From positions 62,001-126,000 of the forward strand of contig FSRV01000003.1 in assembly GCA_900142905.1 (NCBI GenBank): a stretch of DNA of 64,000 bases, given 5' to 3'. The notes under the pieces were generated by a model. That model made no database searches and was not told where the DNA came from. It saw only the letters and a program-made list of their open reading frames with translations. Shown piece after piece: positions 9,686 through 29,256 of this stretch. The DNA comes from Burkholderia sp. GAS332 (GTDB lineage Bacteria; Pseudomonadota; Gammaproteobacteria; Burkholderiales; Burkholderiaceae). The position numbers and the translations under genes were made by a program. Numbering within the stretch: the stretch's first letter is position 1; each line of letters begins with the position of its first letter.

Positions 9686-10171
9686 CTAGCCAAGCGGGAA
9701 GGGCATAGCAAACTTCACTTGGTTCATTACGACAAGCGTGCTGAAGCGTCGAACGTTCTTGTTCCCAAAGAAAAAGCTGCGAGTGAACGCGTCATAGTCC
9801 TCCATGCTTGCCGTCGAGATCATCATCACAAAGTCGACGTCACCTGTGACGTAGTGGCACTGGATAATTTCGCGGGTTTGCTGAACCGCACGCTTGAACT
9901 CATCGATCATATCCGCACGTTCTCGTTCAAGGGACACGAGCGCAAGCGTAGTCATGGCCTGTCCAACGCGCGCAGGATCGATGACCGAGATGTCTTTGAC
10001 GATCACCTTCTCTTCTCGCAGCCGCGTTAGACGCCGCAAGCACGACATACCGGACAAGTTCACCTTCTCCGACAGTTGCTTCGCAGTAAGCCGATTGTTC
10101 TGCTGAACCGCCTCTAGAAGTTTGATGTCGAAGGCGTCGAGCTGAAATTGCTGATTGTTCGAAAATCTCAT
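9686..10171 (-). CDS. Lrp/AsnC-family transcriptional regulator
   Basis: A 161-residue regulator with the standard layout: N-terminal winged helix (LDAFDIKLLEAVQQNNRLTAKQLSEKV.. SGMSCLRRLTRL) and C-terminal RAM effector domain (TLALVSLERERADMIDEF, CHYVTGDVDFVMMI, YDAFTRSFFF). Such proteins sense amino acids and usually control adjacent transport or catabolic genes. It is divergent from the MFS/cyclase/GGT genes, with palindromes between them, and so probably controls the catabolic island. Length is normal. Family call is firm; the ligand is unknown. Confidence 0.9.
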   Translation of the reverse strand: MRFSNNQQFQLDAFDIKLLEAVQQNNRLTAKQLSEKVNLSGMSCLRRLTRLREEKVIVKDISVIDPARVGQAMTTLALVSLERERADMIDEFKRAVQQTREIIQCHYVTGDVDFVMMISTASMEDYDAFTRSFFFGNKNVRRFSTLVVMNQVKFAMPFPLG

Positions 10172-10181
10172 CAGAAGTCTC

Positions 10182-10228
10182 CGTAAAGTTATTAAATAAC
10201 ATCTAAGTGCATTTTAAGATACTTTACG
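10182..10228. promoter_or_regulatory. Candidate Lrp operator in divergent promoter
   Basis: CGTAAAGT (10182-10189) and ACTTTACG (10221-10228) are perfect inverted repeats 31 bp apart; between them lie the palindrome TTATTAAATAA (10189-10199) and ATCTAAGTGCATTTTAAGAT (10201-10220). The AT-rich, repeated dyads suit an Lrp-type octamer. They sit directly upstream of the lrp-like gene and ~50 bp before the MFS fragment. Confidence 0.5.
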
Positions 10229-10278
10229 ACAAATAGCCTCTTTACAATAAACATAGTTCACTCAGCGATGAGAATCAT

Positions 10279-10860
10279 ATGGTCACCTCGACAATAGCCA
10301 ACACGACCGCGTCAAGACTTGACCGACTGACCACGCGTTCATTCCACCAAAGGCGGCTCGGGATGGCCGGCGGTGGATTGTTGACCGACAATTTCGACAC
10401 TTACATTGACGGGCCGGTGCTTTTCGTCCTTCTCCACAGCGGATCGCCCAATCCTTCCTACAATGCAACCTTCGTGTTCGCCACCTTCGCCGGCATGATG
10501 GGAACATTCTGCATAGGCATCGCTGGTAACCGGTATGGAAGGAAGCTGACCTTTCGCATCAAACTAGGCATCTTCAGGACGCCATCGTTGGCTGCCGTCA
10601 CCGTGACCAATATGAACATATTGATTGCGATGCGCTTCATTTGCGGCATCGGCCGTGACGCCGCGATGGTAACTGGGTATAGCACGCTCTCAGAGTGTGT
10701 TCCGCCGAAAAGCCGCGGAAATTGGCTTGCGCTGCTTTTTATGATGTCGTCGTGCGGCCTTTCCACTGCCACTATCCTCCCCATTTTGGTACCGATCTCT
10801 GGTGGGAGAGTCAGGTTCGCTATCACAAAAAGTAGCTGTTCCATATTGAGCCGCTCATGA
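10279..10860 (+). pseudogene. Truncated MFS transporter
   Basis: Only ~190 residues of a major facilitator transporter remain, about five membrane helices of twelve. The helix 2-3 loop motif is recognisable (IAGNRYGRKLTF for GxLaDRxGRR), followed by MRFICGIGRDAAMVTGYSTLSECVP. The last residues (RVRFAITKSSCSILSRS) are not MFS-like, so a deletion has removed the C-terminal half. The stop overlaps the next ATG by 4 bp, preserving the original operon spacing. Its intact ancestor probably imported the substrate of the following enzymes. Confidence 0.65.
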
Positions 10861-11654
10861 ATACAAATCCGAAATGCTTTGTAACACCTAAAGACCTAAG
10901 GACTGCTATTAGAAGCGGAGACTTCAGCGGTTACACGGCAGGGCTCGCGCCTGGCTACGTCCAAGCGAACATTTGTATTCTCCCGCGAGATTTTGCCGAC
11001 GAGTTTTTGCTCTACTGTCAGTGCAACCCCCAACCGTGTCCGCTCATTGCGAGGTCAAATGTTGGCGAACCATATCTCCCGGCTCTCGGTAAAGACATTG
11101 ATATTCGATTCGATGTCCCGCGCTATCACCTCTTTAAGTGCGGAGAGCTGACAGCTGAGGTGACCGACATCAGCTCCTACTGGAGTGACGATCTCGTAAC
11201 GTTCGCACTCGGGTGCTCGTTTTCGTTCGAGGAGGCGCTGCTTGATGCCGGCCTATCGCTGCGATACCTTGAGCGCGGCGATGTGGCCGGGGTATATCAA
11301 ACCAATTTGCCAACTAAGGCAGCAGGCCGATTTAGCGCGCCAATTATGGTGACGATGCGTCCATTCACACCTGCCGACGCAATCCGCGCGATCCAGATCA
11401 CTTCAGGGTTTCCGCGTGTTCACGGCGCACCCATTCACCTAGGCGATCCCGCTGCAATCGGTGTCGATCTCGACCGACGATACAGGGATATTGGCTCCAA
11501 AGAAGTTGGGGATCAAGAAATTCCCCTATTTTGGGCTTGCGGGCTCACTCCGCAGCTAGCGGTGATGCATGCGAAACCTCCGCTTTGCATTACTCATGCG
11601 CCATCTTCGATGTTGGTGACAGACTTGCGAAATTCTTCTTTGGCCGTTCTGTAA
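10857..11654 (+). CDS. D-glutamate cyclase-like / DUF1445 hydro-lyase
   Basis: A 265-residue protein of the DUF1445 (putative hydro-lyase, D-glutamate cyclase) family. Typical signatures: the N-terminal YTAGLAPGYVQANICILPRDFA, FALGCSFSFEEALLDAG, VTMRPFTPADAIRAIQITS, and HGAPIHLGDPAAIG with IPLFWACGLTPQ near the end. The mammalian relative converts D-glutamate to 5-oxo-D-proline; bacterial members are mostly uncharacterised and often lie by allophanate hydrolases or amino-acid permeases. Here it precedes a gamma-glutamyltransferase, so a role in handling glutamate or pyroglutamate released in the pathway is plausible. Reading begins inside the stop of the MFS fragment. Confidence 0.8.
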   Translation: MNTNPKCFVTPKDLRTAIRSGDFSGYTAGLAPGYVQANICILPRDFADEFLLYCQCNPQPCPLIARSNVGEPYLPALGKDIDIRFDVPRYHLFKCGELTAEVTDISSYWSDDLVTFALGCSFSFEEALLDAGLSLRYLERGDVAGVYQTNLPTKAAGRFSAPIMVTMRPFTPADAIRAIQITSGFPRVHGAPIHLGDPAAIGVDLDRRYRDIGSKEVGDQEIPLFWACGLTPQLAVMHAKPPLCITHAPSSMLVTDLRNSSLAVL

Positions 11655-11673
11655 TCCCTTATCGAAGGTCTAA

Positions 11674-13263
11674 ATGCGCAACTTTGAACTTCCCGGCCGA
11701 TCGGAAGCTTTCGGCTCACGCGGCATGGCTGCTGCGTCGCACCCTGCCGCAACATTGGCTGCTCTGGATGTGCTCAAAGCAGGCGGCAACGCTGTCGACG
11801 CTGCTGTTACGGCAGCAGCGGTTCTTGCTGTCGTGGAACCCACGCAGACCGGTATCGGAGGCGACTGCTTCGTTCTTCTCAAGCGGCGCGGGGAACCAGT
11901 CGTCGCCCTCGAGGGCGCAGGCTGGGCGTGCGCCCGCGCGGACGCTGCAAGTTACGTTGCCCAAGGCGTCAAGGCAATTGACCCGCTTACAGCGCATGCA
12001 GTTACGGTTCCTGGCTCGATCCGCACATGGCATTGTTTGTCGACCGACTATGGCACGCGTCCTTGGGAAAGGCTGTTGCGTCCGGCGATTGTAGCCGCTA
12101 CGCATGGCACCCCAGTCACAGAGCGACTCGCGCGAGATTGGGGACGCCAGGTGGAAAAACTTCAGCGCGACGATGACACGGCCCGCGTGTTTCTTCATCC
12201 TGAGGGTCGCGCCTTTCGCGCCGGTGAAATACATTGCCAGCCGGCGCTCGGTGAGGCCTTGAGCAGTATTGCGTCGGACGGTCCGGACGTTTTCTATGAA
12301 GGCTGGATTGCGCAGGATATCGTTACCAAACTGGAGAGTGTCGGGGGACTCCAAACGCTCGATGACTTTGCGGATTGGCGTCCGCGCTACGTCAAACCTA
12401 TCTCAACCGGATATCGTGGCTACGAGCTATGGGAGTGCCCCCCGAGCGGGCAAGGGATCATCGCCCTTGGAATGGCCGCAATGCTAGAGCGCTATCGACT
12501 TGCCGATTTCGATCCTGTTTCGGCCGAACGTTTTCATCTGCAGGCGGAAATTGCGCGGCTCGCTTATGCCGAACGTGACCATTATTTGAGCGATCGCGAG
12601 GACAAAAACGCTTTAGTGCAGCATATGCTCGCGCCGCACAAGCTAGACGAGCGCCTGGCCCGTTTGCGAATGGACGCGCGGATGCAAGATGTGACTCCTG
12701 TAAGCGGACCTTCACATCGGGACACTATCTATTTAACCGTCGTTGATAGCGATGGCCTCGCTGTGTCCTTCATCAACTCGATCTACGATGATTTTGGCAG
12801 CGGCATACTTGCGCCGCGATCCGGCGTGCTTCTACATAATCGCGCTTGCGGCTTTGTGACGGACCCATCGCATCCCAATGCGATCGCTGGGCGCAAACGA
12901 CCTATGCACACGATCATCCCGGCCATGCTGACTAAAGACGGCGAAGCCGTGCTTTCCTTCGGTGTCACCGGCGCCCACTTTCAGCCTCTCGGCCAGATTC
13001 AGGTTCTGACCAACATAATCGACTACGGCATGAACGTACAGGAAGCGCTGGATCAGCCGCGTATGTATGCGCACGGCGATGTTCTGCACTTGGAGCACGC
13101 GGTACCGCAGCGGGTTTGGGACGGCCTCCGTGCGCTTTCGCATAAGCCGGAACCATCACCAAACCCTCTCGGAACCGGCCAGGCTATCTGGATCGAACCC
13201 GATCTTGGCCTTCTTCGTGGCGGTGCAGACCCTCGCCGTGATGGCTTAGCTCTCGGCTTCTAA
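11674..13263 (+). CDS. Gamma-glutamyltransferase family protein (cytoplasmic type)
   Basis: A 529-residue Ntn-hydrolase of the gamma-glutamyltransferase/acylase family. The large-subunit start is clear (AAASHPAATLAALDVLKAGG, AVVEPTQTGIGGDCF) and the autocleavage site is HRDTIYLTVVD, with Thr at about residue 351 as catalytic nucleophile, followed by SFINSIYDDFGSGI. No signal peptide is present, unlike periplasmic GGTs, so it should act on substrate after import. Known reactions are hydrolysis or transfer of gamma-glutamyl groups, or amide acylase activity. It sits between the cyclase-like gene and diaminopropionate ammonia-lyase, suggesting it frees an amino acid from a gamma-glutamyl or acyl conjugate. 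The family is firm; the substrate is inferred. Confidence 0.85.
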   Translation: MRNFELPGRSEAFGSRGMAAASHPAATLAALDVLKAGGNAVDAAVTAAAVLAVVEPTQTGIGGDCFVLLKRRGEPVVALEGAGWACARADAASYVAQGVKAIDPLTAHAVTVPGSIRTWHCLSTDYGTRPWERLLRPAIVAATHGTPVTERLARDWGRQVEKLQRDDDTARVFLHPEGRAFRAGEIHCQPALGEALSSIASDGPDVFYEGWIAQDIVTKLESVGGLQTLDDFADWRPRYVKPISTGYRGYELWECPPSGQGIIALGMAAMLERYRLADFDPVSAERFHLQAEIARLAYAERDHYLSDREDKNALVQHMLAPHKLDERLARLRMDARMQDVTPVSGPSHRDTIYLTVVDSDGLAVSFINSIYDDFGSGILAPRSGVLLHNRACGFVTDPSHPNAIAGRKRPMHTIIPAMLTKDGEAVLSFGVTGAHFQPLGQIQVLTNIIDYGMNVQEALDQPRMYAHGDVLHLEHAVPQRVWDGLRALSHKPEPSPNPLGTGQAIWIEPDLGLLRGGADPRRDGLALGF

Positions 13264-13289
13264 TCACAACACTCAATCAAGATATTCAA

Positions 13290-14543
13290 ATGCCGCTATC
13301 TATTCCTGGCCCGCTGGGCTTTCTGCAGAACCCGCGATCCGTCCGCCAAGATGTCTACCATGCCGATGGGCGTACCGAGATCCTAAGCCTTAAGTCGCTT
13401 GCGAACGCAGAGCGAGAGATCACCGCATGGCCCGGATATACTCCGACTCGTCTCGTGCAAATGTCCGGAATCGCGAGCGCGCTCAAACTCTCGCAGATCT
13501 ACTATAAGGACGAAGGCAGCCGTTTCGGACTGGGTAGCTTCAAGGCGCTCGGGGGTGCCTATGCCGTGCTGCGCTATCTCAAAAAGCAGATCAAATCGCA
13601 GCTTGGAAGTGAACCAGAGACCTCCGAGCTGACTCATGGTGTGCACAAGAAGATTACCTCCGCGCTGACGGTCGCCTGTGCGACGGATGGCAATCATGGA
13701 AAGTCTGTGGCATGGGGCGCGCAGATGTTCGCGTGTAACTGCGTGATCTATGTGCATGCAGGCGTCAGTCAGGCGCGCCGCGACGCCATTGCTGCGTATG
13801 GCGCGAGAGTTCTGGAAGTTCAGGGTACATATGATGATGCCGTCCGCAAGGCCGCCAAGGATGCGCAACTGAACGGCTGGCAAGTTATCTCAGACACTTC
13901 CTACAAAGGATATATGGACGTGCCTCGCGACGTTATGCAAGGCTACGGCATCATTGCCCAAGAGGCATCGCGTCAGTATCCCGAAAAAGCACGTCCCACG
14001 CATGTATTTGTACAGGGCGGTGTGGGCGGCGTTGCCGCAAGCCTCTGTTCCTGGTTCTGGGAAAGTTGGGGCTCGCAAGCGCCTCGATTCATTGTTGTTG
14101 AACCGGATCGCGCCGACTGCCTGCTCCGAAGCGCGAATGCTGGTAAGCCAACTGCGGCCGAAGGTGACTTAAACACCATTATGGCCGGCCTTGCCTGTGG
14201 AGAGGTGTCGTTGAGTGCCTGGTCGATTTTGCGCGACGGGGCGGACGCATTCCTCACGATCACGGATAAAGCTGCGATGGAGACGATGCGCCTTCTGGCG
14301 AACGTGCCGTTTGACGACCCCGTTGTTGTCGCCGGAGAATCCGCCGTAGCGGGGCTTGCAGGCGCAATCCTGTCAGCAGGCGATCCCAAAATTCGCGCTG
14401 CGCTTGGCCTCAGCAAGGACAGCGTTGTCCTTGTTGTCGGTACCGAAACTGCGACCGACCCTGAGATGTACGAAAAGATCGTTGGTCGCAGGCTTGAATC
14501 GATGCAGGACGGGACATCGCAACCCGCGGGGACTACGTCATGA
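13290..14543 (+). CDS. dpaL: Diaminopropionate ammonia-lyase
   Basis: A 417-residue fold-type II PLP enzyme. The PLP lysine lies in RFGLGSFKALGGAYA (Lys at about 85), and the family marks are CATDGNHGKSVAWGAQ, WQVISDTSYKGYMDVPRDVMQGYG and FVQGGVGGVAASLC. DpaL enzymes convert D/L-2,3-diaminopropionate (and D-serine) to pyruvate and ammonia by alpha,beta-elimination. Length matches the family. It is 26 bp after the GGT gene and overlaps the M20 gene by 4 bp, a tight unit in which the deacylase may expose the amine that this enzyme acts on. Confidence 0.88.
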   Translation: MPLSIPGPLGFLQNPRSVRQDVYHADGRTEILSLKSLANAEREITAWPGYTPTRLVQMSGIASALKLSQIYYKDEGSRFGLGSFKALGGAYAVLRYLKKQIKSQLGSEPETSELTHGVHKKITSALTVACATDGNHGKSVAWGAQMFACNCVIYVHAGVSQARRDAIAAYGARVLEVQGTYDDAVRKAAKDAQLNGWQVISDTSYKGYMDVPRDVMQGYGIIAQEASRQYPEKARPTHVFVQGGVGGVAASLCSWFWESWGSQAPRFIVVEPDRADCLLRSANAGKPTAAEGDLNTIMAGLACGEVSLSAWSILRDGADAFLTITDKAAMETMRLLANVPFDDPVVVAGESAVAGLAGAILSAGDPKIRAALGLSKDSVVLVVGTETATDPEMYEKIVGRRLESMQDGTSQPAGTTS

Positions 14544-15808
14544 GCTTACGTAACACAGACTTGAAAGAAGCACCGTTTTACGCGGACAAGATCGATTTAG
14601 ATCTGGTTGCAGAAGTGGTCACCGAGGTCGAAGCATCCCGCGAACTGCTCTTCGACCTTTGTGGTCGCCTCGTCTCGGCGGAAAGCTCGAATCCCCCTGG
14701 CAATACGGTAGCGATGGCCCGCACGCTCGAAGGGTTCCTTCTCGGTCAAGATCTTCCTGCCAAGATAGTCGCTGCAGACAGCGAAGCACCTAATGTCGTT
14801 TGCACTCTTTCTGGCGCTAGACCTGGGGCCCACATAGTTTTGAACGCACACATGGATACGATGCTTGCGGGCGACGAATCTGCGTGGACGGTGCCCATTC
14901 TCGAGCTGACCCGTAAAGACGGCAGGCTCTATGGGCATGGAATGGGCAACATGAAGGGCGCACTTGCGGCAATGGCTTTAGCGTTGAAGATTGTACAGCG
15001 CCGCCTGCCCAGTCTTCCTGGAAAGCTCAGCCTGACTGCCGTATCGGACGAGGTAATGTTCGGGGCGCGCGGGTCTTCATTTCTGCTCCAAGAGCAGCCT
15101 GATCTGTACGGCGACTACATGATCAGTGGTGAAGGTCCAGGTTGGATGAACTTCGCAATCGCGGAGAAAGGTCTTCTCTGGCTCGACATTACCGCTACTG
15201 GAACGGCGGGGCATTCATCACGGGCCTTGCGCGGAGAAACGGCATTAGCGCGTATGTCGGCATTTATCAACAAGCTGGATGAACTCAACGATTTTTATGC
15301 GGAACTTCCAGCCGACATAGCGGGTATCGACGGCGGGGAAGGCAACGTCGGTCTGCGGGTATCAGTGAACGTTGGTTGGATCGAGGCCGGGAACGTTCGC
15401 AGTCTAATTGCACCCGTGGTGCGGGCAAAAGCAGATCTCCGCTTGCCCCCGGGCCTGCCAATCGACGAGCTCAAAGCCCGCATCAATCGTCTGGCTGCTC
15501 AAACCCCGGGAATCGAGGTCGAGTATATGAAGGGTTGGCCTGCTAACTGGGCGCCGCTTGATAGCGTGCCCGTTAGAGCACTAGGTGCCTCAGCCGCAGC
15601 GGTGAGGGGACTTCCAACGCGCCATGTCGTCCGGTTGCCAGGCTCAGATGCACGTTATTGGCGGGACAAGGGGATTACGGCAGTTTGCTATGGCCCCCAG
15701 CCCACCTTGTCATCAGGACTCGATGACTATGCGGAAGAACAGGACGTGCTGGACTGTGCCGCCATCTACGCGCTATCGGCTATGCAACTTATGGCATCGA
15801 GGGTGTAA
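14540..15808 (+). CDS. M20 (ArgE/DapE-like) deacylase with altered metal site
   Basis: A 422-residue M20 metallopeptidase-fold protein: HMDT (His ~104), YGHGMGNMKGALAAM, TAVSDEVMFGARG, the dimerisation-domain GHSSRALRG and GSDARYWRDKGI. Family members remove N-acyl groups or cleave dipeptides with two zinc ions. Here several expected ligands differ: the Asp of GRGxxDMKGG is Asn (~137), the EE pair reads DE, and the C-terminal HxPxE His is replaced (SSGLDDYAE). It may bind one metal or belong to a divergent clade. It overlaps dpaL by 4 bp, so an N-acyl or N-carbamoyl derivative of a diaminopropionate-like amino acid is a likely substrate. Confidence 0.75.
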   Translation: MSLRNTDLKEAPFYADKIDLDLVAEVVTEVEASRELLFDLCGRLVSAESSNPPGNTVAMARTLEGFLLGQDLPAKIVAADSEAPNVVCTLSGARPGAHIVLNAHMDTMLAGDESAWTVPILELTRKDGRLYGHGMGNMKGALAAMALALKIVQRRLPSLPGKLSLTAVSDEVMFGARGSSFLLQEQPDLYGDYMISGEGPGWMNFAIAEKGLLWLDITATGTAGHSSRALRGETALARMSAFINKLDELNDFYAELPADIAGIDGGEGNVGLRVSVNVGWIEAGNVRSLIAPVVRAKADLRLPPGLPIDELKARINRLAAQTPGIEVEYMKGWPANWAPLDSVPVRALGASAAAVRGLPTRHVVRLPGSDARYWRDKGITAVCYGPQPTLSSGLDDYAEEQDVLDCAAIYALSAMQLMASRV

Positions 15809-15878
15809 GCCGCTGCTAAACGGACATTTTTCTTAACTGACGGTCTGAGCTGTCGACTAGGACACAGGAGATTTGACG

Positions 15879-16754
15879 ATGAAATCATTCTTGAAAATGC
15901 TTTTAAAGAAGCTGACCCCGGCGGCGGGAATGGCGGCTCTGCTGGTAATCTGCGGCCCGGTTTTTGCCCAACAGGTTTGCGAGCCTCAAAATCTCGCATC
16001 GAAGTATCCCACGCTGGTGGGCAAAGTAGTCAAGATCGGAGCCGATCCTGAAAACCCGCCCTATGTAATGCGCGACAAGGTTCACTTCGACAAGATTGTT
16101 GGGGTCGATGCTGAGTTAGCTCAGGCCGTACTCGATTGTGTTGGGGTAAAGCATGAGTTTTTCCTCGGATCTTGGTCTGGCCTCTTGCCTGCGGTTATGA
16201 GCGGGCAGATAGAAGTGATGTGGGATGACTTGGCTTACCGCCCGGACCGTGCAAAGTCTGTCGACTACATCATTTATATGACTGCGGGCAATGCCGCTCT
16301 TGTCCCAGCTGGCAACCCAAAGCACATTGCATCGATTGGTGACATCTGTGGATTGTCCGTGGCATATGCCGTCGGCAGCGTCGAAGAAGGCTTTGTTCGT
16401 AAGCAAGCCGATGAATGCAAAGGCGCTGGCAAACCACCTGTCGCTTCAATGCCATTCCAAGATCTAGCGGCTGGCTTACGGCTGCTCGACAGCGGAAGAG
16501 CAGACGCGGTGATGTGGGACCTAGCCTTTATCGACTCGATGGTAAAGGACAATCCGAAGAAATATGCTCGCGCGTTTGCGTTCAATACCGGCGTTCCTGT
16601 AGGCGCTGCCGTGCCGAAAAATTCGGAGGAGCTTCGCAAAGCGATATACGAAGGTTTGAAAATCATCCAGGCCAATGGCGTTCAAAACGATATCTTCAAA
16701 AAATACGGCGTCGATCCCGGTATTTCTACGTCGGCAGAGATTAAAACGCAGTAG
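15879..16754 (+). CDS. Periplasmic amino-acid-binding protein of ABC importer
   Basis: A ~291-residue solute-binding protein of the polar amino-acid family. Start at the ATG at 15879 fits AGGAG at 15866-15870. A Sec signal peptide is obvious (KK..AAGMAALLVICGPVFA|QQVC). The mature part shows VVKIGADPENPPYVM, KIVGVDAELAQAVLDCVG, and VMWDDLAYRPDRAKSVDY, where DxxxxRxxR binds the substrate carboxylate. It is followed by a fused permease-ATPase, its presumed membrane partner. Substrate unknown; its place next to dpaL suggests a diaminopropionate-type or gamma-glutamyl amino acid. Confidence 0.85.
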   Translation: MKSFLKMLLKKLTPAAGMAALLVICGPVFAQQVCEPQNLASKYPTLVGKVVKIGADPENPPYVMRDKVHFDKIVGVDAELAQAVLDCVGVKHEFFLGSWSGLLPAVMSGQIEVMWDDLAYRPDRAKSVDYIIYMTAGNAALVPAGNPKHIASIGDICGLSVAYAVGSVEEGFVRKQADECKGAGKPPVASMPFQDLAAGLRLLDSGRADAVMWDLAFIDSMVKDNPKKYARAFAFNTGVPVGAAVPKNSEELRKAIYEGLKIIQANGVQNDIFKKYGVDPGISTSAEIKTQ

Positions 16755-16790
16755 GCGCTATAACTGGTAGACCTGTTCGGGATTATTAAA

Positions 16791-18575
16791 ATGAACGGAA
16801 TTATTAAGAGATCGCTCTTCGCTGGTGTCGTAGTTGCTAGCGCTGTAGCCTTGGGTACATCGGTTTTGGCCGCTGAAACGTTTGGAACTTCTGGTAACGT
16901 CCCAGGCGCGCCAGAGCATTGGATTTGGGATTTCTTCTCATACTCTACTTCCAGCTTTCTTTGGGATGGAGCAGTTATAGCGGTAGAAATCACTGCGATT
17001 TCCATGACGATTGGACTGGCCGCAGGTTTAGTTTTGGCGCTAATGCGACTGTCGGATATATTCCTGGTTCGAACTTTCGCGCGATTCTATACATGGTTCG
17101 TCAGGGGCACTCCGCTGTTGTTGCAACTTGTCTTTATATTCGACGCGCTGCCATTTGCCGGACTCAGATTTAGCAGTTTCATAACAGCTGTGATTGGGTT
17201 TTCGCTAAATCAGGCGGCGTTCAGTGCGGAAATAATCCGCGGTGGCATCTTGTCTGTGAACAAAGAGCAGTCCACAGCCGCCGGCGCACTTGGAATGGGA
17301 CCTTTATTGACATTACGCAGAATAATTCTTCCGCAAGCCATGAGGGCGATTCTCCCGGGTGTTGGGAATGATGCGATTAGTATGGTGAAACTAACGTCGA
17401 TAGCATCGATCATTTTTTTGAACGAGTTGACGTTTAGAGCGCAGCAACTGGTTGGGCAAAACTTCAAGTTTTTCACTGTTTTTGCGGGAGCCGCTGTCAT
17501 ATATTTGTTTCTGACGAGCGTTATATCGGTAATTCAAAGCTTGTTAGAACGGAAATTTGATTTAGAACGTGAACGACGGCCTGTAGGTGAAACTTGGCAA
17601 CGCCTAACCGGGGTTCAGTTGCGGCTGGTTCGGGGCAAATCGAAGGGACTTCCACAGAATGGCGGCCTCGTATCTGTCTCAGAGGACCATGCCTACGCGA
17701 CCGATGTATTTCAAACCTTGGTTTCGGGAATAAACAGCATTGCCGAACAAGGTGATCCTTTCGTCGTTTGCCAGAACGTGCAGAAGGCGTACGGTAGCCG
17801 GACGGTGCTGCGGGGTATTGACCTGACAATTTTTCGGGGAGAAGTCGTTGTGCTTTTGGGCCCAAGCGGTTCTGGGAAAAGTACATTTTTGCGTACTGTG
17901 AACCACCTCGAGCCACTCTCATCAGGCTCGATCACCGTGGACGGCCGATATGTCGGCTACGAAAAAGACCAAAACGGTGACATAAGGCCAACTGGCCATC
18001 TTGCCCGTGCTCGTGCTGATGCACGAATCGGTATGGTTTTCCAGCATTTCAATTTGTTCAGTCACTTAACGGCGGTTGAGAATGTCATGGAGGCGCCGAT
18101 CCGAGTGTTCGGGATGCCCGTTAGCAAAGCGCGGACGCTTGCAATGCAGCTTCTTTCAGAGGTCGGTCTTATGCAACATGCCGATCATTTGCCGCACCGA
18201 CTGTCTGGTGGACAACAGCAAAGAGTAGCGATAGCACGGGCGCTGGCTATCTCACCAACTCTCATGCTTTTCGACGAGCCGACCTCCGCTCTTGACCCAG
18301 AGCTCGTAGGTGAGGTGTTAGGGGTGATGCGCAAGCTCGCTGACGCCGGGATGACAATGATCGTGGTTACACATGAAGTGCGTTTTGCACGCGAGGTGGC
18401 AGATAGGGTTGTTTTTATGGACGAGGGCCAAATTATCGAACAAGGCCCGCCTAGCCAAGTAATCGATGCCCCTACGCATGAGAGGACTCGTCGTTTTCTA
18501 AATATGGTGGAAAGAAGCGAAGAAACTCAGCTTGAGGACGAGTCTACTCTTAGCGGAAAATACGCCAAGGTATAA
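16791..18575 (+). CDS. Fused amino-acid ABC permease and ATP-binding protein
   Basis: A 594-residue fusion. Residues ~1-30 look like a signal sequence or extra helix; ~60-265 are a HisM/GlnP-type permease with the EAA-like loop (STAAGALGMGPLLTLRRIILPQA); ~320-580 are a GlnQ-type ATPase with Walker [10 protein letters not shown] (~358), Q-loop MVFQHFNLF, signature LSGGQQQR (~470), Walker [13 protein letters not shown] (~492) and H-loop VVTHE. A ~60-residue linker joins them. As a homodimer it would supply both permeases and both ATPases, so with the preceding binding protein it makes a two-gene importer. Most polar amino-acid systems keep these as separate proteins, as in the second importer at 27.1-29.3 kb. 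Confidence 0.9.
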   Translation: MNGIIKRSLFAGVVVASAVALGTSVLAAETFGTSGNVPGAPEHWIWDFFSYSTSSFLWDGAVIAVEITAISMTIGLAAGLVLALMRLSDIFLVRTFARFYTWFVRGTPLLLQLVFIFDALPFAGLRFSSFITAVIGFSLNQAAFSAEIIRGGILSVNKEQSTAAGALGMGPLLTLRRIILPQAMRAILPGVGNDAISMVKLTSIASIIFLNELTFRAQQLVGQNFKFFTVFAGAAVIYLFLTSVISVIQSLLERKFDLERERRPVGETWQRLTGVQLRLVRGKSKGLPQNGGLVSVSEDHAYATDVFQTLVSGINSIAEQGDPFVVCQNVQKAYGSRTVLRGIDLTIFRGEVVVLLGPSGSGKSTFLRTVNHLEPLSSGSITVDGRYVGYEKDQNGDIRPTGHLARARADARIGMVFQHFNLFSHLTAVENVMEAPIRVFGMPVSKARTLAMQLLSEVGLMQHADHLPHRLSGGQQQRVAIARALAISPTLMLFDEPTSALDPELVGEVLGVMRKLADAGMTMIVVTHEVRFAREVADRVVFMDEGQIIEQGPPSQVIDAPTHERTRRFLNMVERSEETQLEDESTLSGKYAKV

Positions 18576-19407: not shown

Positions 19408-19494
19408 ATCTGAGCTTTTGTCGACCGCGGTGGCGACGAAAGTCGAGAGAGCCGAAGCCGCGACCACATATCGTTAGGATTTGGGAGGCCAATG

Positions 19495-20910: not shown

Positions 20911-21094
20911 TAAATTCACTGCGGCTCTGTCGCGGCGAGGAAGGTGAGTCATGCGGGATCGATTAATGAAGAGAATCAACGAATACAACTGTTGTGCGAC
21001 CGGGGCGCAGTCTTGCCATCTTGGATAGCTCAGCAGCAAGGGAATACCAGGACTTTTGCAGACCTTCCTTAACATCTTTTTTGGAGCAACTAAA

Positions 21095-21823: not shown

Positions 21824-21847
21824 TTAGGCTGCTAGGTTCTAATCACC

Positions 21848-21870: not shown

Positions 21871-22041
21871 AAAGTATATCGTCCATGCCCCAACGTGCCT
21901 TCAAATTGCACGTTGGTGCCTTTCCGTTTCCAGCGTTATCGATCAAACAACGCAGTGGTCCGCGATGGGCGAACTCGTCTTTTGAACACTCTACCCCGGT
22001 CTGCCGGCTGCACGAATCTTATCAATGATGAGGAGGCTTCG

Positions 22042-23484
22042 ATGCCAATGCAAGATGTATCACCCGGTCTTTACAATGAAGACTTGGCCCCCGTAAAGAT
22101 TCGAAACTGGGGAGCTTTCAGCATCTTTAACGTTTGGACATCGGATGTACACAGCTTGTGGGGATATTATTTGGTGTCAAGCTTGTTCCTCATGTGCGGA
22201 GGCTTCGCGAATTTTTTAATCGCTATCGGCGCCGGTTCATGCGTTATATACCTTTTGATGAACTTAATCGGTTATGCCGGCGTCAAGACCGGTGTTCCAT
22301 ACCCGGTGCTCGCTAGAGCCTCCTTTGGCGTTTGGGGAGCTAACCTACCCGCCCTGATCCGTGCCATTGTCGCGTGCTTCTGGTACGGTGCACAGACTGC
22401 AGCCGCTTCCGGTGCAATCGTCGCGCTACTTATTCGCACGAAATGGATCGCTGATTTCCATCAGAATGTGCATCTTCTCGGCCATTCAGGGCTAGATATC
22501 ATCTGCTTCCTCGTCGTGTGGGCACTGCAGTTACTGATAATCCAAAGGGGTATGGAAACGGTGCGGCGTTTTCAGGACTGGGCTGGGCCGGCGGTATGGG
22601 TCATGATGTTGGTCCTAGCGGTGTACCTATCTATGAAGGCGAAGAGTTTTTCAACGACCATCCAGATGCCTGTGGATCTTCTACTTGAAAAAACCAAGAA
22701 CGCTGGAGTGCCGGGCGCGCCTGGATCTTGGACAGCCCTGTTCGCAGTCGCGGCGATCTGGGTAACCTACTTTTCACCGCTTTTCTTAAATTTCTGCGAT
22801 TTCACGCGCTATGCAAGAGACCGCGCCGCGGTGCGTAGAGGCAATTTGTGGGGCTTACCGGTAAATCTCTTGCTGTTTTCTTTGGTTGCGGGCATCACCA
22901 CGACCGCCGCCTTCAACGTCTATGGTGTGTTGTTGTTACACCCCGAAGAGATATCTGCAAAATTCGAAAGTTGGTGGTTGGCAGCACTAGCCGCGCTAAC
23001 ATTTGCAGTCGCCACGCTCGGCATCAACGTCGTCGCAAATTTTGTTTCGCCAGCTTTCGATTTCGCGAGCATCTTCCCACGTCAGGTTAGTTTCAAGAGC
23101 GGTGGCTATGCCGCAGCGCTGATCGCGCTGACGCTTTATCCTTTCGCCCCTTGGGCGGGAAGCGCGGCGTCGTTTGTTGCTGGTGTCGGCGCTACCATGG
23201 GGCCTATCCTCGGTGTCATATTGATCGACTACTATTTGATTCGCAAGGGAGACATTGACGTAGAAGATCTCTACCGCGAATATGGTGAATTCCGGTTCCA
23301 GCGTGGCTGGCATGTCAACGCCTTCGTTGCCGCCGGCATCGGTACGATGTTCTCCTCGATCCTGCCCAGCTTTACGGATTGGCTGCCCTCTTGGTGGGGC
23401 GTCTATGGCTGGTTCTTCGGCGTGGGAATATCTGGGTCGATCTATTACGTATTGCGCATGCTTGTATTGCGCTCTCAAAAATAG
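22042..23484 (+). CDS. NCS1-family nucleobase/hydantoin-type permease
   Basis: A 480-residue inner-membrane symporter with about 12 hydrophobic segments. The N-terminal signature is that of nucleobase:cation symporter-1 proteins (NEDLAPVKIRNWGAFSIFNVW), with GVPYPVLARASFGVWGANLPALIRAIVACFWYG in TM3-4 split by a short loop, and a Trp-rich C-terminus. Known substrates are purines, cytosine, allantoin, hydantoins and thiamine. The start at 22042 follows AGGAGG at 22031; the open frame upstream is not protein-like. In this island it may import a ring-containing or ureido-type precursor. Substrate not predictable. Confidence 0.85.
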   Translation: MPMQDVSPGLYNEDLAPVKIRNWGAFSIFNVWTSDVHSLWGYYLVSSLFLMCGGFANFLIAIGAGSCVIYLLMNLIGYAGVKTGVPYPVLARASFGVWGANLPALIRAIVACFWYGAQTAAASGAIVALLIRTKWIADFHQNVHLLGHSGLDIICFLVVWALQLLIIQRGMETVRRFQDWAGPAVWVMMLVLAVYLSMKAKSFSTTIQMPVDLLLEKTKNAGVPGAPGSWTALFAVAAIWVTYFSPLFLNFCDFTRYARDRAAVRRGNLWGLPVNLLLFSLVAGITTTAAFNVYGVLLLHPEEISAKFESWWLAALAALTFAVATLGINVVANFVSPAFDFASIFPRQVSFKSGGYAAALIALTLYPFAPWAGSAASFVAGVGATMGPILGVILIDYYLIRKGDIDVEDLYREYGEFRFQRGWHVNAFVAAGIGTMFSSILPSFTDWLPSWWGVYGWFFGVGISGSIYYVLRMLVLRSQK

Positions 23485-23583: not shown

Positions 23584-23742
23584 CATTGAAATGGGGCCGA
23601 AGTCCTCCATATCCTTCACTCCCGCACCGGAATAGCGCAGCGATGAACCTTGCCTATCAGTGCTTCCACGCGCTGAGAAAGTACTCGTCGCACGCGCGCT
23701 TAGTGCTGATATATTGCGCGGGTAACTTCACATCATGAGTAG

Positions 23743-24657
23743 TTAAGCATCTAAGGCTGCTTCGATCGTCGCCCCCTCTTTTGCTATCTGAGTTCGCATG
23801 GTGGTGAGGAATTGCCGTGCGGCGCCATGCAACGCAGCGCCAGACCGGAAGATAAGTACATCGTCGAATGGCACGCTTACGCAAAGCCGTCTAATCACCA
23901 AGCCCCTCGTGAGAAATTCAATTGCTGGAAGAGGATGAACAAATGCGATACCCGCCCCACTGCGAGCCAATTCGCAAGCTGATATACAAAATGGCGTCTC
24001 AACGACTGTCCTTAGGCCGATTCCTTGCCTTTTAAGATGCTGTTCCAGCGTTTGACGCGTGACATCTTCCGAATTCAACGAAATAAAATTGTCGGTAGTC
24101 AAATCTCCCAGTTGCACGACTTTTCTTTGTGCCAATGGATGCCCGGTCCGCATGGCTATCACGCCCTCGAAAGAGCTAAACGCAGAATGCTCCAATCCGA
24201 CGCATGGCATTTCGGGAGCCATGAGTCCGAAGTCAACGGCCCCTGACATGACCTGTTGATGCACGTCACGTGATCCCACGACTTGAAGCGATATCTGAAC
24301 GGATGTGTGGGCTTCCATGAAGGCGGCTATAGCTCTCGGAATGAAACAGTTGCCAAGGGCAGGATACGACGCAATGGTTAATCGTCCCTCAGCGAACGAC
24401 CCTAAGCTTCGAATGACGTGCTCAACAGACTCATACCCGACGAAATAGCGGTCTATCGCCGTCATCAAGACACGCGCCGCGTGGGTTGGGACCATCCGGC
24501 CTCGAACACGATCGAAGAGCGCCGCACCGCAGTCCCGCTCCAGCCTAAGGACAGCCTGGCTTACTGCGGGCTGCGACAACCCGAGCAGTTCGCTCGCTCG
24601 CGCCGTCGAGCCTGAAGTGATAACCGCACGAAATGCCTCAATTTCACGATGGGACAT
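23743..24657 (-). CDS. LysR-family regulator
   Basis: A 304-residue LysR protein: winged helix in residues ~1-60 (HREIEAFRAVITSGSTARAS, LSQPAVSQAVLRLE), then the two-lobed effector domain (LTIASYPALGNCFIPRAIAAF, AVDFGLMAPEM, ACELARSGAGIAFVHPLPAI). It is divergent from the cystathionine beta-lyase-like gene with a LysR-type box between them, so it most likely activates that lyase, the M24 peptidase and the second ABC importer in response to a pathway metabolite. Confidence 0.9.
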   Translation of the reverse strand: MSHREIEAFRAVITSGSTARASELLGLSQPAVSQAVLRLERDCGAALFDRVRGRMVPTHAARVLMTAIDRYFVGYESVEHVIRSLGSFAEGRLTIASYPALGNCFIPRAIAAFMEAHTSVQISLQVVGSRDVHQQVMSGAVDFGLMAPEMPCVGLEHSAFSSFEGVIAMRTGHPLAQRKVVQLGDLTTDNFISLNSEDVTRQTLEQHLKRQGIGLRTVVETPFCISACELARSGAGIAFVHPLPAIEFLTRGLVIRRLCVSVPFDDVLIFRSGAALHGAARQFLTTMRTQIAKEGATIEAALDA

Positions 24658-24681
24658 GACAAAACTTTATACGCCAAGAAG

Positions 24682-24699
24682 GTTTAACTATAGCTTAAC
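24682..24699. promoter_or_regulatory. LysR-type binding box
   Basis: GTTTAACTATAGCTTAAC is an imperfect dyad (GTT(T)AA...TTAAC) midway between the divergent LysR and lyase genes, about 25 bp from the LysR start and 55 bp from the lyase start. Position and shape fit a LysR recognition site. Confidence 0.5.
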
Positions 24700-24752
24700 A
24701 ATTTTGACTTTGGAAAACTGCGACCAAGAATTCAAACCCAGTAGGAAGAGAC

Positions 24753-25880
24753 ATGCGCCAGTCACTACCCGAATCACCGTTCCAGAGCTTGACAGTGCCA
24801 ATTACCAGAGCCTCGACGATCGTTTTCGACTCGTTGGACGACTTCGTCAATCGTTGGGCCCGGCAGCCTGATGGATTCAGCTACGGGGTGACTGGGACGG
24901 TCACCACTCGTGCTTTAGAACGTGAGATTGCTAAGTTGGAAAACGCAGCTCATTGCGTTGTCCTTCCATCCGGCCAAGCTGCTCTGACAGCAGCCGCGAT
25001 GGCATTGCTCCGTAGCGGCGACCACATCCTTGTTACCGACGGGTCGTATGGTCCGTTCAAAGATTTCTGCGTTCGCTGGCTCGCGCAAATGGCGATTGGA
25101 GTTGATTTTTATCCAGCCGGGTTCCGCGGAGCGATCTCCGATTACGTCAAACCGAACACTCGCCTGATTCACATCGAGGCGCCGGCGTCGTTGACGATGG
25201 AAATTCCTGACATTGCTGCGATAGTTAAAACCGCGCGTGACCGTGGCATTCGCACGATGATGGACAACACATGGGCCAGCGCTGTCGCCTACCGGCCCCT
25301 CGAACATGGTATTGATCTAAGCATCGAGGCGGCCTCGAAGCTCTTTGGAGGCCATTCAGACCTCTTGATGGGTTCCGTTTCAACTAATGATATTGAACTC
25401 CACAAGAAGCTGCGTGACGTCCAGAACGCTGTAGGTCTCGCCGTCAGTCCCGACGACGCCGCGCTCGTTTTGCGAGGGCTCCACACGCTGGAGCTGCGCT
25501 ACAAAGCTCAAGCGAAAAGCACTCTCAAAATTGCTGAATGGCTCGATGCACAACCACGAGTCGAGCGAGTGCACTATCCAGCCTTACGTAGCGATCAAAG
25601 CTTCGAACTTTGGCAACGCGACTTCACTTCGGGTGGTTGTGTACTGTCATTCTCTGCGGACGGTTCCGACGTGTCGGACTACCGAAGCTTCTTCTCGAAG
25701 CTAAAGCACTTTGCAATCGGTGCAAGCTGGGGAGGGGTTCACAGCCTTGCGGCATTTTATCCCAGCGAGATCCACGCGTCGCGCACCTTCAGGACGACCG
25801 ACTCACCCTTGGTTCGACTTTCGATTGGTCTGGAAGATGTAGACACGCTTCTCGCCGAACTGGAAGCTGCATTAGGTTAA
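24753..25880 (+). CDS. Cystathionine beta-lyase-like PLP C-S/C-N lyase
   Basis: A 375-residue Cys/Met-metabolism PLP enzyme. Key marks: FSYGVTGTVTTRALEREIAKLE, the cofactor-stacking LPSGQAALTAAAMALL, DNTWASAVAYRPLEHGIDL, and the PLP lysine in SIEAASKLFGGHSDLLMGSV. The family catalyses alpha,beta-elimination of cystathionine and cysteine conjugates; rhizobial mimosine-degrading C-N lyase also belongs to it. Here it sits with a LysR regulator and an amino-acid ABC importer rather than with methionine biosynthesis genes, so a catabolic substrate is more likely than cystathionine. ATG follows GGAAGAG. Confidence 0.85.
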   Translation: MRQSLPESPFQSLTVPITRASTIVFDSLDDFVNRWARQPDGFSYGVTGTVTTRALEREIAKLENAAHCVVLPSGQAALTAAAMALLRSGDHILVTDGSYGPFKDFCVRWLAQMAIGVDFYPAGFRGAISDYVKPNTRLIHIEAPASLTMEIPDIAAIVKTARDRGIRTMMDNTWASAVAYRPLEHGIDLSIEAASKLFGGHSDLLMGSVSTNDIELHKKLRDVQNAVGLAVSPDDAALVLRGLHTLELRYKAQAKSTLKIAEWLDAQPRVERVHYPALRSDQSFELWQRDFTSGGCVLSFSADGSDVSDYRSFFSKLKHFAIGASWGGVHSLAAFYPSEIHASRTFRTTDSPLVRLSIGLEDVDTLLAELEAALG

Positions 25881-25915
25881 TTTCAAACGTTGAATCACCT
25901 TGAAGAGGTTAGGAC

Positions 25916-27088
25916 ATGAAAGAATTGATCAAATTGAGACTTGAACGGCAGGTTGCTTTGATGGAACAGAATGGAATCGACCTGCTCATCGCGACAACTG
26001 CTGAAAACGTACACTATCTGACGGGGTTTTTTAGTATTGCGAAGCAAGTTATTCCATCGATGCACCTCTTTGCGGTTCTGGACAAGAGCGGCAGCGTCTT
26101 CCTCGTTTGCAGTAAGGCAGAAATACCGTCCGCTATGGAAGAGGGCCTTCGTTCTGAACAACTACATTGTTTCGGGCCTTTTCAATTTGCACCGCCTCCT
26201 GAAGGTGACCCGCATGCTGGCGTCCTCGCGTTAAATCAGACCGACTCCTTTACCGCTCTGGCTAGCGTTCTTAAAAAATGCAACGCTACCAGAGTCGTTG
26301 GCATCGACGGCGACGGTGTGACCCACGCGGCTTACGAGAAACTGCGTGAGACAGTCGGGAGCGGTGCCCGGATTGTCGACGGCGGAAAATGCATCAGGGC
26401 GTCCCGTCTCCTTAAGTTCGATGCAGAGATAAGGTCTCTCCGCAAATCTGGGCAAATCGTGGAAGCCGCGATTCAAGAAGTCTGTGAACAGTACGTCTCT
26501 GGCCAAACGGAGAAGGAAGCGCAACAGATCTTTGAGCGATACGTAGTCTCTCAAGGTGCCCGACCGAACTTTACTGTGATTTCGAGCGGCCCCCGATCTG
26601 CTTTCGTTGATACTCGCACGACGGATCGCCCGATGGTCGAAGGCGACCTCATTCGATTCGACGTTGGCTGCGTGTTCGAAGGCATGCATTCGGATATCGC
26701 TCGCACCGTGTCAATCGGGGAGCCGGCTGCAAAGATGAAGACGTTCTACACGGCTATTCGCAACGGGATGCAGGCAATGCTTGATGCATGTCGACCCGGT
26801 GCACGCGCCGGAGATATCTTCGATGTGGGCGTCAGTACTACCCGCCGCTCTGGGATTCCGCACTATGCACGCAACCATTGCGGGCACGGTATCGGAATGC
26901 AGGTATACGAGGCGCCAGGCATCGTCTCAACATCCGATGAAATCCTTGCAGAGCGGATGACTATGTGTCTGGAGACACCGTACTACGAGTTTCAATGGGG
27001 TGGTGTCCAGGTCGAAGATTCTGTTGTGGTCACAAGCGAAGGTTGTGAACCTTTCACCATTTCGCCAGTTAAACTAATCGTAATTTAA
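25916..27088 (+). CDS. M24 Xaa-Pro-type aminopeptidase
   Basis: A 390-residue pita-bread metallopeptidase. An N-terminal creatinase-like domain (DLLIATTAENVHYLTGF) precedes the catalytic domain, whose five metal ligands are all present: Asp in IRFDVGC, Asp in MHSDIART, His in HCGHGIGMQVY, Glu in CLETPYYEF and Glu in GVQVEDSVVV. It would remove an N-terminal residue or cleave a dipeptide-like amide. It is 35 bp downstream of the lyase gene and 14 bp upstream of the binding protein, one transcription unit. A dipeptide conjugate of the amino acid is a reasonable substrate. Confidence 0.85.
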   Translation: MKELIKLRLERQVALMEQNGIDLLIATTAENVHYLTGFFSIAKQVIPSMHLFAVLDKSGSVFLVCSKAEIPSAMEEGLRSEQLHCFGPFQFAPPPEGDPHAGVLALNQTDSFTALASVLKKCNATRVVGIDGDGVTHAAYEKLRETVGSGARIVDGGKCIRASRLLKFDAEIRSLRKSGQIVEAAIQEVCEQYVSGQTEKEAQQIFERYVVSQGARPNFTVISSGPRSAFVDTRTTDRPMVEGDLIRFDVGCVFEGMHSDIARTVSIGEPAAKMKTFYTAIRNGMQAMLDACRPGARAGDIFDVGVSTTRRSGIPHYARNHCGHGIGMQVYEAPGIVSTSDEILAERMTMCLETPYYEFQWGGVQVEDSVVVTSEGCEPFTISPVKLIVI

Positions 27089-27102
27089 CGAAGGGATTCA
27101 AC

Positions 27103-27858
27103 ATGTTCAGACGTCCGTTTATGAAAACTCTTCCGATCGCGGCATCACTTGCTGCAACCTTAGGTGTCCCGTTTCCGGCGTTTGCGGCAATGCCGGTTAC
27201 TGTCGCTATTTTGACCACCGCCCCGCCCTTTGAATATAAGGACGGGGCGGAGTTGAAAGGGTTTGAAGTCGATCTCCTCCAAGCTATCGCAGCGAAAGAA
27301 GATTTGAAGCTGCAGTATGTCGAAATGAAGTTCGAGGGGATGATTCCGGCTCTACAGTCGCACCAGGTCGATGTCGCCGCAGCAGGTTTCTTCACTACGA
27401 ACGCGCGTAAGGCTGTCCTCGATTTCTCTTCGCCCCACTATCGCCAGGGTAACGTTCTCGCAACCTCAATCAGCAGCCCGATCAGGTCGTTCACGGACCT
27501 TAAAGGTGCAACCATTCTTGCCAAAAAAGGCGCTGCGAGCGTCCCGGTAGCGGACAAGCTAGCGGTGCAGTACGGCGCTCACGTCAAGGTTCTGAACGAT
27601 GAGCCTTCGATGTACATGGACGTTGCCACGGGTCAAAGCCAAGCGCTCGTGAACGATTCGGCGGTGATTGCTTACAAGATCAAGATCGACGGCGCACATG
27701 CATCTTTGCGCCAAGTAGGCGCTGTGCTAGAAGAGCAGGACGTCGCGTTTGCTTTTCCAAAAGGAAGCGCCCTGACGAAAAAATTTAACGAAGGGCTGCA
27801 GAAAATAAAACAGAACGGTGAATACAAAACCATCTATAGCAGATACTTCGCTCAATAA
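27103..27858 (+). CDS. Amino-acid ABC transporter binding protein (second importer)
   Basis: A 251-residue periplasmic binding protein with a Sec signal peptide (RRPFMKTLPIAASLAATLG..AFA). The mature protein shows VTVAILTTAPPFEYKDGAELKG compressed into the usual start, KGFEVDLLQAIAAKEDL, MIPALQSHQVDVAAAGFF with the ARKAVLDFSSPHY binding loop. It heads a standard three-gene importer (binding protein, permease, ATPase) in the same unit as the lyase and M24 peptidase. Unlike the first system, its domains are on separate proteins. Confidence 0.88.
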   Translation: MFRRPFMKTLPIAASLAATLGVPFPAFAAMPVTVAILTTAPPFEYKDGAELKGFEVDLLQAIAAKEDLKLQYVEMKFEGMIPALQSHQVDVAAAGFFTTNARKAVLDFSSPHYRQGNVLATSISSPIRSFTDLKGATILAKKGAASVPVADKLAVQYGAHVKVLNDEPSMYMDVATGQSQALVNDSAVIAYKIKIDGAHASLRQVGAVLEEQDVAFAFPKGSALTKKFNEGLQKIKQNGEYKTIYSRYFAQ

Positions 27859-27875
27859 TTTTCCCCGGCCGCGCC

Positions 27876-28541
27876 ATGGAACGACTGTTAGCAAACTTTT
27901 ATATAACTCCATCCGACCTTGGATTGTTACTGCTAGGTGCCGAGTTGACAATCGAGGTCACGATTATTTCGCTGCTGATTGCAAGTGTAATCGGACTTGC
28001 GGTCGGCCTTGCAAAAATTTCTCGCAATTCCGCAATCCGCGGCGCGGCAAGTGCGTACATCAGTATCATCCGTGGGTTGCCCTTGCTCGTTCAGATTCTT
28101 TATGTCTATTTCGGTATAGCGTTAACGACGGGCATTCGAATCCCGCCGTTCACGGCAGGTGTGGTTACGATGAGCATCTACGCCGGAGCCTACTCCGCGG
28201 AAATTTTTCGTTCAGGCATTGAATCAATCGACAAAGGTCAAATGGAAGGCGCACTGTCTATTGGATTATCGAGATGGCAAGCCATGTTTCACGTTGTGCT
28301 GCCTCAGGCAACTAGAAGGATGGCGCCCACTTTCGCAAATCTTTTTAGTACAACTCTCAAGGATACATCCTTACTCTCAGTAATAGGTGTCACTGAACTA
28401 ACGATGGCAGGCCAAAACATATACGCCGTAAACTTCCAGACCCTAAAGGTTCTGACAATAGTGGGTGGAATCTATTTTGCAATGGTCTATGCGCTGTCGA
28501 AGCTGACGTCGCTGCTCCAAAAGAAGGCTCGCAATGCTTGA
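27876..28541 (+). CDS. Amino-acid ABC transporter permease
   Basis: A 221-residue HisM/GlnP-family inner-membrane permease with about five helices ([24 protein letters not shown] start, [20 protein letters not shown]) and the EAA-like loop [21 protein letters not shown], which docks to the ATPase. It begins 18 bp after the binding protein and overlaps the ATPase gene by 8 bp. A single permease gene implies a homodimeric channel. Confidence 0.9.
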
Positions 28542-29256
28542 AATACGGAAATTGACGAAATCTTTCGGCGAGCACCGGGTGCTATGTGGCATCGATCTGG
28601 CCGTCAAAAAAGGGGAAGTGGTCTGTCTGATCGGCCCGTCTGGTTCAGGCAAGTCGACTCTGATTCGATGCATGAATCTTCTTGAGACGCCAACTTCTGG
28701 CGAAGTGTACTTTGAACACGTCTGCTTGACCGATCATCGCACCGACATTGCCAAAGTACGTCAAAAGTTGGGCATGGTGTTCCAGAATTTCAACCTTTTT
28801 GAGAACAAAACTGTTCTGGAGAATCTGACACTTGGCCCTCGAATGCTGCTTCGCTTGGGACGCGAAGAGGCTGAACAACAAGCACTTGCACTTCTTAACC
28901 GCGTTGGCCTGGAGTCGAAGTCGGATTTCTATCCCGGCGCATTATCTGGCGGACAGAAGCAGCGTGTGGCGATCGCTCGTTCGCTAGCAATGAACCCGCA
29001 TGCATTGCTGTTCGACGAGCCGACGTCAGCACTCGATCCTGAAATGGTGGGTGAGGTACTCGCTGTGATGAAAGATTTGGTGAGAGACGGTATGACGATG
29101 ATCGTGGTAACCCACGAAATGGGGTTTGCGAAAGAAGTCTCGGATCGAGTAGTATTCATGGACTCTGGCCGGATCGCAGCCGATTGTGCAACCGCGGATT
29201 TCTTTGGGCGCCAGCAAACGGATCGTGTTACTTCTTTTCTCTCACGAGTCAAGTGA
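28534..29256 (+). CDS. Amino-acid ABC transporter ATP-binding protein
   Basis: A 240-residue GlnQ-type ATPase: Walker [11 protein letters not shown]-loop [11 protein letters not shown], signature ALSGGQKQR, Walker [17 protein letters not shown] and H-loop IVVTHEMGF. It completes the second importer and is the last gene of the catabolic unit: an insertion sequence begins 18 bp after its stop. Confidence 0.93.

Follow-up and report, generated by a model that had tools for sequence, protein, structure and literature searches.

The window analysed here is a stretch of 64,000 nucleotides from the soil bacterium Burkholderia sp. GAS332. Between positions 9686 and approximately 18575 it carries a conserved catabolic cassette, which lies beside two other modules. 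The cassette consists of a divergent Lrp regulator gene on the minus strand, followed by genes for a DUF1445 protein, a protein of the gamma-glutamyltransferase (GGT) family, a diaminopropionate ammonia-lyase (DpaL), and an M20-family protein, together with an importer that varies between loci. We tentatively propose that it may well degrade a 2,3-diaminopropionate conjugate to pyruvate and ammonia by means of two amide hydrolases and DpaL, the conjugate probably being a non-protein amino acid of the kind that plants make. The preliminary description had postulated an undescribed catabolic gene set around DpaL. That expectation is borne out, as the catalytic residues checked are kept and no description of a gene set combining DpaL with GGT/M20 was found in the literature searched, which left most subscription journals outside its coverage, and none of the DUF1445 papers there had a title on this topic; nor was anything on these genes found in the literature on mimosine, ODAP, and 5-nitroanthranilate. 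The cassette appears to be undescribed and recurs in other bacteria.

Gene content was established from open reading frame (ORF) calls and family scans (Pfam and NCBIfam) of 20 proteins in 9686-31758. These confirmed every gene named previously for 9686-29256 and added one that had been overlooked, namely the N-terminal half of an MFS transporter (10279-10860, plus strand, 193 amino acids), probably a remnant. The Lrp/AsnC regulator (9686-10171, minus strand) is divergent from the cassette, whose other genes are all on the plus strand. They encode a member of the DUF1445/D-glutamate cyclase family, annotated as a 'putative hydro-lyase' (10857-11654; PRK05463, 348 bits against a cut-off of 324, and PF07286 matched), a GGT-family N-terminal nucleophile (Ntn) amidohydrolase with an HpxW-like pocket and Thr351 as predicted nucleophile (11674-13263), DpaL, an enzyme dependent on pyridoxal phosphate (PLP; 13290-14543), and the M20-family protein (14540-15808). 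A periplasmic substrate-binding protein (SBP) of the SBP_bac_3 family (15873-16754), the probable cassette importer in the host genome, and a fused ABC permease-ATPase of the polar amino acid type (16791-18575) complete the run. Intergenic gaps within 10857-18575 do not exceed 64 bases, and the start of the M20 gene overlaps the dpaL stop by 4 bases.

The genes DUF1445-GGT-DpaL-M20 are collinear in Burkholderia catarinensis (L018), Azospirillum brasilense Sp7 (L012), Afipia (L023), and Bradyrhizobium (L029), and because this order recurs in other genera the association is more than chance. In B. catarinensis, identities reach 79% for Lrp, 78% for GGT, 71% for DpaL, and 75% for M20; its DUF1445 is 68% identical over the first part and then continues in another frame (9248-9885), so that the gene may be broken or the draft in error. 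DUF1445 is 68-70% identical in other loci of this arrangement (type A) and 79% identical over a remnant in the plasmid cassette of Bosea vaviloviae (L011, 10365-15427), which is decayed, with an in-frame stop in DpaL and a split M20 as well. Lrp is likewise divergent in B. catarinensis and A. brasilense (50% in the latter), and no relative of it was found at the Afipia and Bradyrhizobium cassette loci. The importer is the variable part. The half-length MFS gene corresponds to the start of a 507-amino-acid ORF that occupies this position in B. catarinensis, with 61% identity over the matching part, and an importer may have been lost in the host and replaced by the ABC genes; the SBP_bac_3 protein has no relative of at least 35% identity in any of the 22 cassette loci described below.

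Neighbourhoods were compared at the best 80 of at least 569 GGT-like relatives from the search of genome contigs, to which plasmid and genome searches added more. Neighbours were counted as relatives at 35-40% identity and 30% coverage (DpaL 40%, Lrp at least 35%); the neighbour lists of GGT and MetC loci rest on a crude ORF caller, and two unannotated loci (L015 and L016) were searched with window proteins only. This yielded 22 cassette loci, 17 with a cassette-type GGT (53-78% identity, Thr432 and Arg522) and five found via M20. DpaL was present at 14 of the 22, DUF1445 and M20 at the same 10, and Lrp at 9, whereas all four were absent from the 76 other GGT-like loci (55 of them at least 15 kb long), including four that are also 53% identical but lack Thr432 and Arg522. 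A search that started from M20 in 296 genomes of the family of the Bradyrhizobium locus gave seven carriers, two of them already known. Beside M20 lay DUF1445 in all seven, GGT in six, and DpaL in five; for the five new loci alone the counts were 5/5, 4/5, and 3/5. At an E value of 1e-40, M20 was present in 6 of 15 cassette genomes or records, exactly the type-A carriers (five organisms, as two entries are one genome), and in none of the other nine. Within the host's family, 398 genomes were searched and 8, host included, have a GGT of at least 54% identity, while the M20 search across 398 genomes of the phylum returned the host only. One 56% DpaL match (L017) was set aside for its unrelated neighbourhood. 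A further variant was observed in Bradyrhizobium (L019-L021), where a cassette-type GGT and Lrp accompany a different M20 (PRK07079 in L019) without DpaL.

A second cassette type occurs on a Klebsiella plasmid (L013) and in its relatives (L160, L162-L164), which pair GGT with a DpaL-like enzyme that retains the TDGNHG motif. A transporter of the serine/threonine permease kind adjoins GGT in L013, L159, and L161-L164 (one representative was scanned, scoring 315 bits against a cut-off of 526), and TauE/SafE lies beside GGT in L013 and L162. Of the type-A loci outside the host, those of A. brasilense and Bosea have RidA next to the cassette, and the Bosea locus also carries TauE and pyruvate carboxylase. 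Loci of the Bradyrhizobium family have coenzyme A (CoA) transferase genes (L023 and L210) or an acyl-CoA ligase pair accompanied by a zinc dehydrogenase (L209). Two ORFs of approximately 1150 amino acids that resembled pyruvate carboxylase at first sight matched no NCBIfam model at 1e-60. The RidA, TauE, pyruvate carboxylase, and CoA genes fit the handling of aminoacrylate, pyruvate, and a released acid, but are no proof of it.

The DpaL protein scored 502 bits with PRK08206 (cut-off 276) and 345.7 bits with the E. coli-type equivalog TIGR03528, below its cut-off of 532.25. The six positions checked (Lys77, Asp120, Tyr168, Asp189, Cys265, and Cys291), whose roles we presume from the E. coli enzyme, all match E. 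coli YgeX (PDB 4d9g), and a diaminopropionate-type substrate is therefore the simplest inference. Of the substrates suggested earlier, 3-substituted alanines and gamma-glutamyl amino acids, a 3-amino-substituted alanine or a conjugate of it is thus likely; the gamma-glutamyl forms fared worse, as set out below.

The M20 protein matches the Pfam M20 family and fold, and it departs from the di-metal site typical of that family, whose ligands are His, a bridging Asp, Glu, Asp/Glu, and His. At E 1e-60 or better its subfamily comprised 834 proteins among 7999 scored, and the 120 listed were inspected together with the window protein. His104 and Glu198 are retained in all 121, whereas position 137 is Asn in place of Asp in 121/121, position 172 is Val (120) or Ile (1) in place of Glu, and position 392 is Ala (108) or Ser (13) in place of His. 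With three of the five canonical ligands replaced in every protein inspected, the earlier view of this protein as an ordinary deacylase is not supported. The subfamily is often labelled desuccinylase in one source, yet the metal ligands of desuccinylase are missing. Another M20-family member, 5-nitroanthranilate aminohydrolase (PDB 5k8m-5k8p), is approximately 23% identical to the cassette protein and acts on an unrelated substrate.

The closest PDB entry to the GGT-like protein is 2nlz, with 5hft further down. The latter is listed as gamma-glutamyltranspeptidase, and we take it to be the oxamate amidohydrolase HpxW. The small subunit shares with 5hft the motif SFI.SIY..FGSG as well as Asn-Arg, His-Thr, and Gln-Pro, so that the pocket letters look alike in the alignment, although the match amounts to only approximately 99 bits over the small subunit and two positions distinguish the cassette clade: Thr432, found in 18/18 cassette-type proteins against Met in 95/95 other relatives, and Arg522, found in 18/18 against Lys in 93/95. 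Because no signal peptide is visible in its sequence, the protein is probably cytoplasmic.

Such a pocket, next to a DpaL with intact residues, raises the possibility that the substrate is beta-ODAP (N3-oxalyl-2,3-diaminopropionate), already among the candidates of the preliminary description, or another oxalyl amide of this kind. Given the oxamate activity that we assume for HpxW, the enzyme resembling it would remove oxalate or cleave oxamate after elimination by DpaL, and DpaL would yield pyruvate. We regard this as improbable on several grounds. Oxalyl-CoA decarboxylase is not enriched, exceeding the cut-off in 11/18 cassette genomes (type A 4/9, second type 4/6, Bradyrhizobium G872-G874 3/3) against 64/90 background genomes; the background is a single family, the numbers are small, some assemblies are in many pieces, and A. 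brasilense and Bosea were left out. When confined to the Bradyrhizobium-type family from which those 90 were sampled, the type-A figure is 3/7. The neighbouring CoA transferase and ADP-forming ligase suggest another acid, M20 and DUF1445 would be left without a clear job, and none of the 18 cassette-type proteins has the arginine of the 2nlz GSGR motif, 13 having Trp at that position and 5 having Ala.

A comparable degree of doubt attaches to gamma-glutamyl conjugates of 3-substituted alanines, which GGT would split before DpaL eliminates the freed amino acid. Family membership speaks for them: like bacterial GGTs, the protein belongs to PF01019 (442 bits) with a predicted Ntn threonine, although TIGR00066, at 357.1 bits, falls just under the cut-off of 357.85. 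The gamma-glutamyl-binding residues of E. coli GGT, presumably Arg114, Gln430, Asp433, Ser462, and Ser463, are nevertheless not found in it. E. coli GGT was aligned over the large subunit only, where the arginine has become Ala82; in the small subunit, compared with Bacillus GGTs, Asn-Arg and His-Thr replace Asn-Glu and Ser-Ser, so that Arg390 stands for Glu/Gln and His412-Thr413 for Ser-Ser. Arg390, His412, and Thr413 are identical in 113/113 distinct relatives, window included. Apart from family and nucleophile, then, the protein differs from bacterial GGTs both in this pocket, which is HpxW-like, and in showing no signal peptide, and the gamma-glutamyl substrates put forward earlier lose their footing. 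The clade, although annotated as gamma-glutamyltransferase, lacks the gamma-glutamyl pocket.

It is similarly doubtful that the cassette serves a sulfur amino acid, with beta-elimination freeing sulfite or a thiol that TauE/SafE exports. TauE/SafE does adjoin the cassette GGT or M20 in L011, L013, and L162, but the other 14 of the 17 loci obtained without M20 do not have it, and the gene is not in the window. Moreover, DpaL retains the residues of a diaminopropionate lyase, and TauE proteins export several anions.

For a 2,3-diaminopropionate conjugate, we envisage the following route. The conjugate, which could be an acyl amide, a ureido compound, or a lactam/cyclic form, would be imported, and two cytoplasmic amide hydrolases, the HpxW-like member of the GGT family and the altered M20 protein, would free the diaminopropionate from it. 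DUF1445 might open or close a cyclic form or act on the released acid. DpaL would then convert free 2,3-diaminopropionate to pyruvate and two ammonia, and hosts that have RidA would use it to remove 2-aminoacrylate. The fate of the released acid would differ between hosts, being either export through TauE/SafE or activation with CoA. Lrp would control the cassette. Gene order, conservation, and residue patterns are what the sequences show; the substrate class, the order of steps, the roles of DUF1445, the GGT-like protein, and M20, and the regulation are inferred. A precedent for the M20-DpaL pair is offered by E. coli YgeY (M20) and YgeX (DpaL), which convert albizziin to pyruvate (PMC12507026). 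The end of the reductive urate pathway (YgeY and YgeX in E. coli) and the cassette both cluster M20 with DpaL, and in both the last step is predicted to convert diaminopropionate to pyruvate and ammonia. In contrast to the reductive urate cluster, the cassette has DUF1445, the GGT-like protein, and Lrp in addition; XdhD, YgfK, SsnA, HyuA, and YgeW were all absent from the 20 scanned proteins, to which the search for them was confined.

Several observations weigh against this proposal. No cassette gene fixes the substrate. Model scores of 81 and 58 bits, where the cut-offs are 321 and 321.5, show that the M20 protein is not YgeY, and it may be something other than an ordinary hydrolase. The way the searches were run shaped the set of 22 loci, since five came via M20 and two (L011 and L012) also via DpaL, and L020 and L021 come from one genome. 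Within the roughly 10 kb checked on either side, DpaL is absent from 2 of the 7 M20-first loci (L208 and L211) and from 6 of the 17 others (L019-L022, L159, and L161), being present in 11. In L014, L160, and L164 it is present but lies apart from the other genes, and the DpaL-like enzyme of the second cassette type is only 43-45% identical.

To the right of the cassette lie two modules, encoded on the plus strand except where stated. The middle one comprises DJ-1/PfpI proteins a (18706-19407, outside the conserved cassette) and b (21056-21823), an AtzE-like amidase of the amidase-signature family (19492-20910), which reached the cut-off of none of the NCBIfam models listed, and an NCS1 permease (21895-23484). 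The right-hand one comprises a LysR regulator (23743-24657, minus strand), a MetC-type PLP lyase (24753-25880), an M24 metallopeptidase-fold protein (25916-27088; 77 bits against a cut-off of 613 for ectoine hydrolase TIGR02993), and a second ABC importer (27103-29256) with an SBP (27103-27858), a GlnP permease (27876-28541), and a GlnQ ATPase (28534-29256). The preliminary description had treated the whole block as one island and had named neighbourhood comparison as the observation that could refute it. Because relatives of PfpI, the amidase, NCS1, LysR, MetC, and M24 at the set thresholds occur in 0/22 cassette loci (the nearest miss being a 31% LysR in L022), the refuting result named there was obtained and the whole-island reading is rejected, and the middle and right genes seem to be neighbours of the cassette only in the host.

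PfpI relatives are scattered over 502 plasmid records. For the amidase, a search of 249 family genomes at 1e-110 gave a match in the host alone, and there was no plasmid relative at 1e-70. NCS1 relatives of 65-70% occur in 15 other of 299 genomes, with a second copy on host contig C2; plasmid matches in Rhizobium and Roseateles were rejected for their unrelated neighbourhoods. MetC relatives of 51-55% were found in 16 other of 144 genus genomes, and at the 13 of these loci examined there are LysR and ABC genes, whereas the cassette is absent and no M24 could be recognised. A further MetC-type gene of the host, 38% identical, is on C1. The closest named MetC (82%), with a divergent LysR (79%), lies on the symbiotic plasmid pSYM of P. 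phenoliruptrix near ectoine-type genes, and no cassette gene occurs within 14 kb of it. The best plasmid relatives of M24 reach approximately 35%. In gene content, the right-hand module resembles the Rhizobium mimosine (mid) operon, which likewise has LysR, an ABC importer, and a PLP lyase, the M24 protein being extra. Separately, a plasmid of Paraburkholderia sabiae from Mimosa nodules (L214, 2104-10526) combines the same families differently, in a run of genes for a PLP lyase, an ABC importer, DUF1445, and M24 together with 'tyramine oxidase subunit B'. That the entire 9.7-29.3 kb forms one pathway, in which the MetC-type enzyme, M24, amidase, and NCS1 would share the cassette's substrate, is very unlikely: adjacency, a similarly low GC content, and the P. 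sabiae plasmid joining DUF1445, M24, PLP lyase, and ABC importer speak for it, against which stand the 0/22 count and the MetC-LysR pairs without a cassette in P. phenoliruptrix and the 13 genus loci.

The host genome spans 10.4 Mb in three contigs, and the one with the window appears to be approximately 805 kb long; the window DNA is plasmid-like. A KfrA-like plasmid protein (492-1526) and an AcrB-type RND pump (51485-54661) flank the region. Within the block GC content ranges from 50 to 58%; the preceding 4.5 kb have 56-59% and the following 6 kb 55-63%. Beyond the block lies an IS5-like transposase (29386-30252), which exceeds two of three Pfam cut-offs and scores 92 bits against the cut-off of 110 of its best NCBIfam model, and past this element a second M20-family protein of another kind (465 amino acids, 32140-33537). 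A NodA search gave no match in the host and none in the control genomes either.

It is conceivable, though we think it unlikely, that the cassette represents an undescribed alpha- and betaproteobacterial pathway whose substrate is an oxalyl, acetyl, or ureido derivative of diaminopropionate, neuroactive and made by plants, and in which a mononuclear M20 protein performs chemistry unlike ordinary di-metal peptide hydrolysis, as 5-nitroanthranilate aminohydrolase does. If the proposed function is correct, the cassette would add a catabolic route for diaminopropionate-type non-protein amino acids, with a defined gene set that could be tested in Azospirillum brasilense Sp7.

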